Assembly: GCA_945882095.1 (NCBI GenBank)
Contig: CAMCWF010000009.1
Span: forward strand, 1-64,000
DNA: 64,000 bases
From: Chryseobacterium gleum
GTDB taxonomy: Bacteria > Bacteroidota > Bacteroidia > Flavobacteriales_D > Crocinitomicaceae
Direction: 5' to 3'
The notes beneath the pieces were generated by a model. The model was not told the DNA's origin, made no database searches, and saw only the letters and a program-made list of their open reading frames with translations. Below, piece after piece: positions 52,907 through 57,111 of this stretch. Both the position numbers and the translations under genes were made by a program. Position 1 is the first letter of the stretch, and each line of letters starts with the position of its first letter.

Positions 52907-53551
52907 CTATTTTAAGCCTGCAATCGCTTCTTTTGTACCGATTTTCATGGTTATAAAATCCACTTCTTTTTTTGGACTGCGTGCAGGGGAGTATGCCCTT
53001 CCATAAAAGATGATCTGCAAATGAAGTGCATTCCATGTATGTTCAGGGAAGAGTATTTTCGCATCTTTTTCGGTCTGCTCAACATTTTTTCCTGACGTCA
53101 ATCCCCAACGAATCATGAGTCGATGAATGTGTGTATCAACGGGAAAAGTTGGAATGCCAAAGGCTTGTGCCATGACCACACTTGCGGTTTTATGTCCCAC
53201 ACCCGGCAATGCTTCCAAGGCTTCAAAGGTATTGGGCACCTCCCCGTTATGGTGTTCCAATAGCAATTCAGAAAGCCGGTGAATGGCCGCAGATTTTTTG
53301 GGAGAAAGTCCACAGGGTTTAATGATATTGCGAATGCTTTCCACCGACAATTGGACCATTTTCTGGGGAGTATTTGCCAACGCAAACAGGGCCGGTGTTA
53401 TTTGGTTCACTCGTTCATCCGTACATTGTGCGGACAGAAGTACGGCAATCAATAAGGTGTATGCGTCGCTGTGGTCTAACGGAATTGGGGTTTCTGGAAA
53501 CAGTCGTGCCAATTCTTCAATGACATACTTCGCTTTTTCTTTCTTTTTCAT
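52907..53551 (-). CDS. nth: endonuclease III-like DNA glycosylase without Fe-S cluster cysteines
   Basis: 214 residues from the ATG at 53551 (a second ATG two codons earlier is equally possible). The helix-hairpin-helix LEALPGVGHKTASVV carries the catalytic Lys121, and FPVDTHIHR supplies Asp139. The C-terminus, where the family has four cysteines binding a 4Fe-4S cluster, reads YGRAYSPARSPKKEVDF and has no cysteine. The only cysteines are Cys43 and Cys80. The enzyme should remove oxidised pyrimidines in base excision repair. Its ATG overlaps the stop of the J-domain gene (ATGA). Confidence 0.93.
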   Translation of the reverse strand: MKKKEKAKYVIEELARLFPETPIPLDHSDAYTLLIAVLLSAQCTDERVNQITPALFALANTPQKMVQLSVESIRNIIKPCGLSPKKSAAIHRLSELLLEHHNGEVPNTFEALEALPGVGHKTASVVMAQAFGIPTFPVDTHIHRLMIRWGLTSGKNVEQTEKDAKILFPEHTWNALHLQIIFYGRAYSPARSPKKEVDFITMKIGTKEAIAGLK

Positions 53552-54405
53552 GGCCATTGTCCTAAAGTTAAAATGGAAAAAATCCTAAAGTGAAATACCA
53601 AAAAACACAGAAGAATCAATGTGGTCACATACATGCTTAGCCATGAACCCAAAACCATTAAAACGTTGTGTTTACGCACAAGTACAATGAGGATGGAAAT
53701 AACCAAAAATGCCACAATTCCCCCCCTTACCCAATAAAAGTTAAAGTGAATTTCAATGGGATTGGCTTTTCCTGCCCATTCATGCGAGACAAAGGCATTT
53801 TGCCGACAGATTTTTGTTTGGTAAAGTGTAATTTCTGGCTGCTTGTCAAATGTATTCGGTACATAATTCGCGATGAATAAGGTATGCCCTTTTTGGGTGT
53901 GAACCTCATGTAAGAATCCTTCGCCTACAGTTTGATAACGCGTTAGGTTGTAACTTGAAATGCGGTCTTGTACTGGTATTTTTTTTGAGAATTCATCGAT
54001 GGTCAGGCAAGTAAGCACCAGAAAAGAAACCACCGCGACGATGTATTTGAACCTCATTTTTTTTCCAGTAAGCAGAGAATGGTAGAAGTTGTTAAGTTCA
54101 TTTTCTTGTTCTTTGCGCATTCTTTCGTAACGCTCCCAAGCTTTTCGGTGAAAATCAGTATGGTTGACATTTGGATTTGATGAAGGGTAATTCGCGCGCG
54201 CATTGAACTTCGGGGTTTCTTGAAAATCTTTCTTCAGAATGCGTTCATAGGCATCCAAAATACGTTGAAAAGTTTCCGTAGCCGCTGGGTCTGGATTTTT
54301 GTCGGGGTGAAATTCTTTAGCAAGCGAACGAAATTTTTTCTTAACCTCTTCATCACTGCTTTGATTGGGCAATCCTAAAATGTTATAGTAGCGTGTTCCA
54401 GGCAT
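53548..54405 (-). CDS. membrane J-domain protein
   Basis: 285 residues from the ATG at 54405. The J domain occupies about 4-62 (YYNILGLPNQSSDEEVKKKF; the HPD motif is present in FHPDKNPDP). A hydrophobic helix at about 118-137 and two more near the C-terminus (about 225-280) anchor it. J proteins stimulate DnaK; here the J domain probably faces the cytosol. The gene overlaps the MenE-like gene by 23 bases at its start and nth at its end, forming a tight unit. Confidence 0.85.
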   Translation of the reverse strand: MPGTRYYNILGLPNQSSDEEVKKKFRSLAKEFHPDKNPDPAATETFQRILDAYERILKKDFQETPKFNARANYPSSNPNVNHTDFHRKAWERYERMRKEQENELNNFYHSLLTGKKMRFKYIVAVVSFLVLTCLTIDEFSKKIPVQDRISSYNLTRYQTVGEGFLHEVHTQKGHTLFIANYVPNTFDKQPEITLYQTKICRQNAFVSHEWAGKANPIEIHFNFYWVRGGIVAFLVISILIVLVRKHNVLMVLGSWLSMYVTTLILLCFLVFHFRIFSILTLGQWP

Positions 54406-55393
54406 TTGCGTCAATCGTTTCCTGCATTTTAACTCTGTCTATTTTTCCATTTTCAGTTTGTGCAATAAAATCAACCGCTTGGTAAACCCTTGGGATTTCA
54501 TAATGGTTAAACAATTCGCTGTCAATCAAGTCTTTTCGTTTCGGTAATTGTGATTTCTCAGTGATCACCAAAGCGGTCGTTTCACCAAAAAGTGAATGCT
54601 CCGCAGAAGTAATCATGTAGTCTCCAGAGATTAATTTACCCAAACGCTGTTCAAGGTTTTCAGGATGTACTTTAATTCCACCAGAATTGATGGCAAAGTC
54701 TGAACGTCCAATAAAACGAAACGTAGAAACGTCTAACAATTCTACAATGTCAGTGGTGACAAGGGTTGTGTTTAACAATTGAGGTGCATGGATGGCTAAA
54801 TTCCCTTCGTTTGTACTGAACGTAACACCGGGAATGGCGTGGTAGGGATTGTTGCTTGACCCATTGATATGGCGAATGGCTACATGGGAATAGGTTTCTG
54901 TCATTCCATACGATTGATAGGCATTTTTCCACAGCAGTGCGATTTTTGCTTCCAAATCTAAGGAAATGGGTGCGCCTCCGATAAGGAAGGTGCAGTCGGT
55001 GTGAAGTGTTGAGCCCGATGCGAGGTGTGAGGCAGCTTGTGCAGGAACCAGGGAAATAAAGTCTATGTTTTCGACGACATCTTCCAGGGGGTTTTGACAC
55101 AAAGGGAGGATGTGCAGCTTCATTTTACATTCCATGGCACGAACGATCATCATTTTACCGGCGATGGTATCGCAGGAAAGCGCAAGCGCAGCGTTTTGAC
55201 CGGGTTTAAGGTTGAAGAAAGCAATCGTGTTTTGGGCAGATTTTCGCATTTTTGATTTATCCAAACGAATGGTTTTCGGCGTACCCGTGGAACCAGAGGT
55301 ATGGCAGATAATAAAATCCTCGGCATTGTTCCATTCGTGAAGAAAGGCATCGACTTCAGGTTTTCGTCTTATCTCGTGATAAAAAATTTCCAT
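54383..55393 (-). CDS. menE: AMP-binding ligase, MenE-like (o-succinylbenzoate-CoA ligase)
   Basis: 336 residues, short for the superfamily because the N-terminal region is reduced. The AMP-binding motif is CHTSGSTGTPKTIRL (about 30-44). Further motifs are QSYGMTETYSHVAIRH (about 178) and GRSDFAINSGGIKVHPENLE (about 240). The C-terminal NGKIDR contains the catalytic Lys. In Bacteroidota a short MenE of this size activates o-succinylbenzoate in menaquinone synthesis; no other men gene is in the window to confirm it. It begins 3 bases after the dnaX tau stop. Confidence 0.8.
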   Translation of the reverse strand: MEIFYHEIRRKPEVDAFLHEWNNAEDFIICHTSGSTGTPKTIRLDKSKMRKSAQNTIAFFNLKPGQNAALALSCDTIAGKMMIVRAMECKMKLHILPLCQNPLEDVVENIDFISLVPAQAASHLASGSTLHTDCTFLIGGAPISLDLEAKIALLWKNAYQSYGMTETYSHVAIRHINGSSNNPYHAIPGVTFSTNEGNLAIHAPQLLNTTLVTTDIVELLDVSTFRFIGRSDFAINSGGIKVHPENLEQRLGKLISGDYMITSAEHSLFGETTALVITEKSQLPKRKDLIDSELFNHYEIPRVYQAVDFIAQTENGKIDRVKMQETIDANAWNTLL

Positions 55394-55396
55394 GTA

Positions 55397-57111
55397 TTAA
55401 TATTCAATGTCTAAATTAAATCGATTTTTCAAGGTGTGAATGTTCGGATTTTTCCTCGCCATGGCTTGAAATTTATCTTTTCCAGTGACAGGTTTTTGCA
55501 CTTCGGTAGGGTTGTCGATGACGTCAAGTTTGATTTCTAAAAATCCATTTTTAAGGCTCTGTCTTAAAAAGTTAACATATTCTTGAAGAATCGGTCGGAT
55601 GTATTCTACTTGTACCTGATTGTCTAAGGTTAAGGTTATCGTCTCATCGTCCAACAATGGATCGCGTTTGATCAGCGCGTGGAAAAAGGTTTCCTTGCCG
55701 GCTTCTCTTACTTCATGGGCATATTGTCGCGAAAACTTTTTGAGGTCACTAAGCGAAACCACTTCTCTGGGTAGGTTTCCGACAGGTTGAGAGGTCTGTT
55801 TTCTTTGAGCCTCCATTTCGGATTTGATGCTGATGGTATTTGTTGATTCCGCCACGGGCGTAGGGGCCTGCGTAGAAGGGATTTTTTTGACGACTTCCTG
55901 GATTTTTACTACCTCCAAAGGAGCTTCAGGCTTGTTCGTTCCTTGAACGGTCTTTCGCAAAGATGCTGGATAAGGCAAGATGTCAATGGGATCCGTTAGG
56001 GATTTTTTTTTTCGGATTCCTGTTGAAGGGATCCTAATTCCAAAAGCGCAACTTCGAGGAGCAACCTAGTATTTTTGGAGGTCTTGAATTGTGTGTCTGC
56101 CTTACTCAAAGCGAACAAACCACGAACAATTTGGTTTCTTTCCCACGCTTTGGATTGTTCTATGTACTTGTTTTGTACCGTTTCTGATATGTCTAATATG
56201 GGAAGGGTTCTTGGGTCTTTGGCAATCAATAGGTTTCTAAAGTGATCTGAAAGTCCTTGTAGAAACATTTGTCCATCGAATCCTTTTTCCAAAATCGCAT
56301 TGAGTTCGAGCAGCGCGGCGGCAAGATCTTCCTTTTTCAAGTGGTCTAGCAAATTGAAATAATGCTCATAGTCCAATACATGCAAATTGTTTAGCGTACT
56401 GTCGTAGGTAATGTTGTTGCCTGTAAACGACGCAATTTGGTCGAAAATAGACAAGGCATCCCGCAAGGCTCCATCTGACTTCATGGCTATTAAATGTAGG
56501 GCTTCCATTTCAGCGGAAATGCCTTCTTTTTCAGCGATGCTCTGAAGATGGTTGGCAATATCGGATACCTTAATTCTGCTAAAATCAAATATTTGACAGC
56601 GCGAGAGAATGGTAGGAATTATTTTGTGTTTTTCTGTGGTGGCAAGTATGAAAACAGCGTATGGAGGGGGTTCTTCCAGTGTTTTTAGGAATGAATTAAA
56701 GGCACTGTTCGAGAGCATGTGGACCTCGTCGATAATATAGATTCGGTACTTTCCAAGCATCGGTGGGATACGCACCTGCTCGATGATCGCTCGAATGTCA
56801 TCCACGGAGTTATTGGAAGCGGCATCAAGTTCATAGATGCTTAAAGAGTTCCCTGTTTTGAACGAAAGACAAGATTCACATTCGTCGCATGCCTCTTGTA
56901 TGTCTGAAAGTTGAAAGCAATTAAGTGTTTTTGCCAAGATACGCGCAGTCGTCGTTTTACCTACGCCCCTGGATCCACAGAATAAAAAAGTTTGTGCCAA
57001 ATGGTGATTCTTAATGGCATTTTTCAACGTGGTCGTTATGGACGCTTGTCCAATGACTGTATCAAAAGTTTGGGGCCTGTATTTTCTGGCAGAGACTACA
57101 AAATCACTCAT
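55397..57111 (-). CDS. dnaX: DNA polymerase III tau subunit, by -1 frameshift (dnaX full form)
   Basis: If reading shifts -1 at the A10 run (56003-56012), residues 1-369 of gamma continue as KSLTDPIDILPYPASLRK and then a 193-codon tail, giving about 571 residues. The tail frame is open from the run to the stop at 55397 and has only a TTG near its beginning, so it is not an obvious separate gene. The tail ends KDKFQAMARKNPNIHTLKNR, a conserved feature I associate with Bacteroidota DnaX C-termini. Tau binds the polymerase and DnaB; in E. coli the same gene layout makes tau and gamma. The alternative explanation is a homopolymer sequencing error. Confidence 0.75.
55996..57111 (-). CDS. dnaX: DNA polymerase III gamma-type clamp-loader ATPase (dnaX short form)
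   Basis: 371 residues in the unshifted frame, ending NP-stop two codons after the A run. The AAA+ core is complete: FLFCGSRGVGKTTTARILAK (Walker A), a four-cysteine zinc knuckle (CFQLSDIQEACDECESC), YIIDEVHMLS (Walker B), and TILSRCQIFDF (SRC sensor/finger). Domain III extends to about residue 365, so the shift point lies right after the clamp-loader collar domain, as in E. coli dnaX. A TAGCTTTG promoter element ends 4 bases before the ATG. Confidence 0.95.
   Translation of the reverse strand: MSDFVVSARKYRPQTFDTVIGQASITTTLKNAIKNHHLAQTFLFCGSRGVGKTTTARILAKTLNCFQLSDIQEACDECESCLSFKTGNSLSIYELDAASNNSVDDIRAIIEQVRIPPMLGKYRIYIIDEVHMLSNSAFNSFLKTLEEPPPYAVFILATTEKHKIIPTILSRCQIFDFSRIKVSDIANHLQSIAEKEGISAEMEALHLIAMKSDGALRDALSIFDQIASFTGNNITYDSTLNNLHVLDYEHYFNLLDHLKKEDLAAALLELNAILEKGFDGQMFLQGLSDHFRNLLIAKDPRTLPILDISETVQNKYIEQSKAWERNQIVRGLFALSKADTQFKTSKNTRLLLEVALLELGSLQQESEKKNP
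56003..56012 (-). other. A10 slippery run, candidate -1 frameshift or transcriptional slippage site
   Basis: Minus strand reads GAAAAAAAAAATCCC. In frame: GAA AAA AAA AAT CCC TAA. After a -1 shift: GAA AAA AAA AAA TCC CTA. Adding one A during transcription would give the same product. It resembles the E. coli dnaX A-run (ribosomal slip) and the Thermus dnaX A9 run (transcriptional slippage). Confidence 0.75.

Follow-up and report, generated by a model that had tools for sequence, protein, structure and literature searches.

The dnaX locus and its A10 run

The window, i.e. the whole stretch of 64,000 nucleotides that was analysed, carries on its minus strand a dnaX gene that is laid out in two reading frames. 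Firstly, the zero frame (55996..57111) encodes the ATPase, the lid and domain III, and its unslipped product would be gamma, a protein of 371 amino acids ending in EKKNP. The end of this frame reads GAA AAA AAA AAT CCC TAA. It contains exactly ten A (the A10 run at 56003..56012, in the codons GAA AAA AAA AAT), and the TAA stop of gamma (55996..55998) lies four bases past the run. Secondly, the -1 frame has 202 open codons between the run and its stop at 55397-55399, and the part that follows the run (55397..56002) constitutes the tau tail of 201 codons and a stop. After the run, stops are reached two codons on in frame 0 and six codons on in the +1 frame. The A10 run is the sole A/T run of at least 10 in the whole window. 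The analysis reproduced the coordinates and frames of the original prediction, which had described a 371-residue frame ending two codons past ten A and a -1 tail open for 202 codons.

Pfam searches of the zero frame matched the ATPase, the lid and domain III, with DNA_pol3_gamma3 ending at residue 363 of 371, in line with the earlier proposal that the break falls just after domain III; in the tau tail no Pfam domain was matched. Compared to the DnaX model PRK14971/NF011531 (614 positions), gamma corresponds to positions 1-369 and the tail is colinear with residues 443-613. The scores of 641.2 bits for gamma and 69.3 bits for the tail are each below the 685-bit cut-off of NF011531, as expected because the gene is split over two frames. 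Since gamma and tail correspond to opposite ends of a single DnaX model, they read as parts of one gene in two frames. Another DnaX model, TIGR02397, was matched above its cut-off.

Two further elements lie close to the run on the same strand. Upstream, AGGA, a purine-rich motif resembling a Shine-Dalgarno (SD) sequence (56018..56021), ends 5 nt before the run and could act as a ribosomal stimulator. Downstream, the start-like codon closest to the beginning of the tail is a TTG (55976..55978), as read from the sequence and its open reading frames. The heptamer of the window is A_AAA_AAT, the A_AAA_AAG of the E. coli type being absent. Next after dnaX, a gene for an AMP-binding ligase-like protein (54383-55393, minus strand) starts just past the tau stop, and is followed by one for a J-domain-like protein (53548-54414, minus strand); both were named by eye.

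The window comes from a genome assembly of 2.35 Mb in 44 contigs (96.7% complete). Among its relatives, the gene was present in 56 of 60 genomes, own genome counted, and the junction was read out in 30 loci, our own and 29 of the same genus. All 30 show the break in the same codon, a G before the run, an open -1 frame and, at an identical position right behind the run, a TAA or TGA stop. The run is A10 in 29 of them and A11 in one (L037), where the next base is also an A and the frames are unchanged. The original prediction had proposed a comparison of the run in close relatives, and the 29 same-genus loci all keep the split instead of having a single frame with a non-slippery junction. In the case of a near relative (G222, locus L039), gamma is 99% identical and the A10 is the same, and the tails differ at 1, 4 and 15 bases in codon positions 1, 2 and 3, respectively; the tail is therefore under purifying selection at the protein level. 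Genome-wide, 14 distinct A/T runs of at least 10 were found, and only the one in dnaX sits at an overlap of two same-strand frames of at least 100 codons, so that there is no sign of run-linked gene breaks elsewhere in this assembly.

An error in sequencing or assembly, or a disrupted gene whose real run has another length and leaves one frame, is hardly credible: one family member (L044) does have A11 and a single frame, but at least seven single-contig genomes are split as well (L087, L154, L172, L182, L183, L184, L186), the other A/T runs of the genome do not fall between long same-strand frames, and the break shared by the 29 same-genus loci together with the selected tail led us to reject both error and pseudogene, which are excluded for the group.

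The run and the three tau frames in Bacteroidia

To describe the distribution of the run, loci were drawn from samples at the order, class, family and phylum level and from a scan of named genomes, and the junction was read by script. We removed 16 duplicates, judged by the first 1000 nt, and dropped L212 and L219, which both start inside the gene. The 299 distinct Bacteroidia genes are weighted to the Crocinitomicaceae, the probable family of the window, which contributes 94 of them. In support of this assignment, the dnaX genes of a same-genus genome (G002) and of Crocinitomicaceae bacterium isolate Ww7 (loci L209 and L022) do not differ over the 1000 bases compared. Another 20 genes, from other classes, were treated separately (12 without a run, four with tau in frame 0 and four with tau at -1); they are included in the 236- and 129-gene counts given below, and the eight run-bearing ones also in the tree. 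Frame counts were limited to genes with at least 60 codons of tail on the contig. Thus L152, L238 and L355, with only 18, 17 and 4 codons, were left out of them, and stay in the 261 run-bearing genes and in the stop-distance tests, where L355 may enter the small +1 group. L107 was scored as having no run, yet its contig ends before the junction.

A run of A9-A13 was found at the junction of 261 of the 299 Bacteroidia genes, being A10 in 213, A11 in 27, A9 in 18, A12 in two and A13 in one. Over the first 1000 nt of these 299 genes (299 kb), runs of at least nine A were absent, and the tails of the run-bearing genes (168 kb) had four. The Bacteroidia genes that have no run comprise 16 from one Crocinitomicaceae clade and 22 others, among them L240, L245 and L257 of Bacteroidaceae, and L107. 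Within the 94 genes of the own family, 76 are split with a run, 16 are split without, one is single-frame and one is cut off. A search of this family matched 226 of 240 genomes, and among the matches listed a full-length open frame was seen in G187 (the genome of L044) and G550. Outside Bacteroidia, the run is present in 8 of 20 genes from further classes of the phylum. One member of the own family (L327, genome G571) has a -1 tail that is shut after 72 codons and followed by a 132-codon stretch in the same frame.

The frame in which tau follows the run varies. In run-bearing Bacteroidia genes it is 0 in 120, -1 in 125 and +1 in 13. The expectation that a split would be unusual in Bacteroidota was not borne out, as 138 of the 258 run-bearing Bacteroidia genes whose tau frame could be called are split, a figure in which the own family is over-represented. 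The single-frame relatives mostly have the same run; examples of a run in a single frame are Aquimarina mytili, Aequorivita viscosa, Pedobacter psychrodurus, Mucilaginibacter psychrotolerans and Chitinophaga terrae, and the named isolate Flavicella marina has a run and split frames. Three genera are of mixed state, g27 of the own family, g78 and g68. In the own family the -1 state is dominant, with 76 genes against one frame-0 gene. This one gene is L044 of g27, which has A11 and a single frame, while its g27 relatives have A10 and two frames; in L044 the A that slippage would supply is already written in the DNA.

A gene tree was built from 130 run-bearing genes, including eight that do not belong to Bacteroidia, and requires at least 30 frame changes. 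This full-tree count leans on weak branches, and collapsing these leaves lower bounds of at least 13 changes (branches with support <95 collapsed) and at least 8 (support <99). Shuffled labels need 42-57 changes compared to 31 observed in the 131-row set. Regardless of the tau frame, stops lie close to the run in both of the other frames, with medians of 1-4 codons versus 9 in controls (118 thinned run-bearing genes; p from 2e-2 to 3e-15, values that ignore kinship and are too small). In 56 of 60 frame-0 genes both other frames are shut within 10 codons.

Two-ORF dnaX genes of this kind have been described before. A GeneTack cluster contained 17 such genes from 12 genera, nine of them with A10 and three of a Chlorobi type with 7-9 (Antonov et al. 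2013, PMC3711429). As in those genes, gamma and tau lie in adjacent frames with a -1 transition at the DNA level and ten A at the break, and the poly-A is conserved at the transition; the gene of the window is another case of them. A review from 2016 mentions the reversed type. The passages on these genes in that paper describe neither +1 genes nor a conserved run in single-frame relatives. Our literature search, which had most subscription journals outside its range, found the class-wide pattern in no paper besides the 2013 one, and as far as this search reached, the conservation of the run across three frames is unpublished.

A survey from 2005 pointed out that slippage is difficult to detect by comparison where its product is the shorter one, as for Thermus dnaX, since no additional coding sequence exists that could be tested. 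This difficulty falls away with relatives that have tau in other frames, as they indicate that the run itself and the closure of both other frames are selected across much of the class. Why cells keep gamma beside tau is now testable in many unrelated bacteria, and split dnaX annotations are not necessarily pseudogenes.

Genes without the run and the start of the tail

If the tail were a separate gene with its own start, a fused tau would not be made. The original prediction had noted only a TTG near the beginning of the tail and no sign of a promoter of its own, and the other split genes agree with this in lacking a conserved start codon. Among 129 split run-bearing genes of all classes, only 27 have an ATG, GTG or TTG within 15 codons of the run and 41 have none in the first 60 tail codons, the first start-like codon being at a median position of 43. 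With start-like codons this rare near the run, the TTG at 55978 is therefore not a conserved start. It is nevertheless one of two points that could speak for an independent tail gene, the second being a related clade without the run that seems to start its tail separately. In the run-bearing genes, separate starts would also leave the run without a reason for being kept. We therefore rejected the independent tail gene as very improbable, given that no start is conserved and that the run is.

The clade mentioned consists of loci L103-L106, L108 and L305-L319 from the Crocinitomicaceae genera g23, g29, g30, g36 and g185, all of which retain the gamma stop and the -1 tail. At 13 of 16 distinct junctions the tail frame has an ATC one base before the stop (e.g. 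ATC-T-TAA), and at the other three a standard start overlaps the stop (TAATG, ATGA, GTGA). This suggests that in this clade the tau tail is started separately beside the gamma stop, perhaps from AUC. In the case of L103 and L104 (g29), which keep an A_AAA_AAG heptamer, a ribosomal shift is possible instead of a separate start.

Other arrangements were seen in Bacteroidales genes that have no A run. In L243, L269 and L275 the gamma frame is closed by an in-frame TAG, after which comes ATT GCN AGG, and the tail is open in the same frame directly past the TAG, which in L269 also ends another open frame. Readthrough or restart in place of slippage is suggested by this layout. No relatives of these interrupted genes above 66% identity were present among the matches listed. 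L258 has its tail in the +1 frame around the gamma stop, which could be another type of recoding or an error.

Combining the frames of the run-bearing genes with the clade that has none, we arrive at a reading of dnaX in Bacteroidia as frame-agnostic, which we consider evenly balanced between right and wrong as a whole. Slippage of RNA polymerase at A9-A11 would give all three frames, so that the frame in the DNA would be nearly neutral and would have drifted repeatedly among 0, -1 and +1. What selection preserves would be the run together with the nearby stops of the two frames not used for tau. In lineages that lost the run, such as the Crocinitomicaceae clade, the tail would have become a separate polypeptide started beside the gamma stop, often at AUC apparently, and a covalent tau would perhaps be absent there.

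Slippage in transcription or on the ribosome

Programmed slippage that makes gamma and tau, the main point of the original prediction, is supported by the conservation of both run and split, and judging from these sequences a short and a long protein are very probably made from the single dnaX by slippage at A10. We consider it likely that A10 is a programmed slippage site where the slip occurs in transcription rather than on the ribosome. RNA polymerase would stutter on A10 and produce mRNAs of differing A number. Those with ten A would give gamma, with the stop two codons later, and those longer by one A (or shorter by two) would bring the tail in frame and give tau. We also infer that the cell produces gamma as well as tau and uses the two in its clamp loader.

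Several observations point towards transcription. The run is kept whatever the direction of the shift, which argues for transcriptional slippage more than for a ribosomal -1 shift. In the 2013 paper (PMC3711429), a mixed shift direction is taken as a mark of transcriptional realignment, and this mechanism is proposed for the two-ORF A10 dnaX genes. Transcriptional slippage requires just such a site, with at least nine A kept in any codon phase and for any direction of shift, and with early stops in both other frames. The ribosomal heptamer of the E. coli type needs only six A, and the 9-13 found here consequently favour transcription. At the codon level, the run of the own family is written with Glu GAA in 68 of 68 genes and with two full Lys AAA in 68 of 68, compared to backgrounds of 74% and 76%.

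The principal alternative is ribosomal -1 frameshifting on A_AAA_AAN helped by the upstream purines, in which the mRNA would have a fixed A10 and some ribosomes would enter the tail. We regard this as rather unlikely, although ribosomes could slip as well, as every run of at least nine A holds an in-frame A_AAA_AAA or A_AAA_AAN heptamer. Additionally, the own family is nearly always -1, and its fourth codon is AAG in 38 of 68 genes, but in the window this codon is AAT. The run is also present in the 13 +1 genes and the 120 frame-0 genes. A -1 shift could explain the -1 genes and the gamma of frame-0 genes, but it could never make the tau of the +1 genes, and this speaks against the ribosome, as do the stops enriched in both unused frames.

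Downstream of the run, folding of 70 nt showed no hairpin in the window (z 0.17). Over 115 genes of the -1 type the mean z was -0.46 versus -0.12 in controls. The means of the three groups are -0.46, -0.42 and -0.58, those of their controls -0.05 to -0.12, a weak trend towards slightly stronger folding in every group. Upstream, synonymous shuffles predict an SD-core motif in 67.9 +/- 5.8 of 236 run-bearing genes, and 97 have one; in control windows the count is 78 of 708 with 86.7 expected. Furthermore, of the 79 own-family genes examined, 74 have Glu two codons before the run, and 69 of these use GAG, at a background of 26%; the window itself has GAA there (56017-56019). This upstream enrichment of purines and GAG favours the ribosome and goes against transcription alone, as transcriptional slippage does not explain it. 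Ribosomes of Bacteroidia are described as not recognising SD sequences, which makes an upstream stimulator like that of E. coli dnaX unlikely to work there. The own genome was also scanned for its 16S 3' end, in order to check the anti-SD; no exact match was found, and matches with two mismatches were near chance (56 versus 42 in the reversed control), so that this assembly probably contains no rRNA. Concerning universality, the 22 Bacteroidia genes without a run, Bacteroidaceae included, are evidence against a slippage site common to the entire class.

The locus can be compared to two further known systems. The published descriptions of E. coli dnaX give a -1 ribosomal shift at A_AAA_AAG with SD sequence and hairpin, in which gamma is the shifted product. 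The locus of the window is similar in its A-rich site and in the end of gamma right past it; unlike E. coli, it has ten A, no hairpin was found in it, and tau is the shifted product. For Thermus thermophilus dnaX (A9), the literature describes mRNAs that differ in their number of A, and stops in both frames, gamma and tau coming from one gene. The run of at least nine A and the close stops in the other frames are shared with the window. Thermus and the window differ in that tau is the zero frame in Thermus, while in the window gamma is the zero frame and tau at -1 needs a slip. The Thermus arrangement, with tau unslipped, is present in many of the Bacteroidia relatives.
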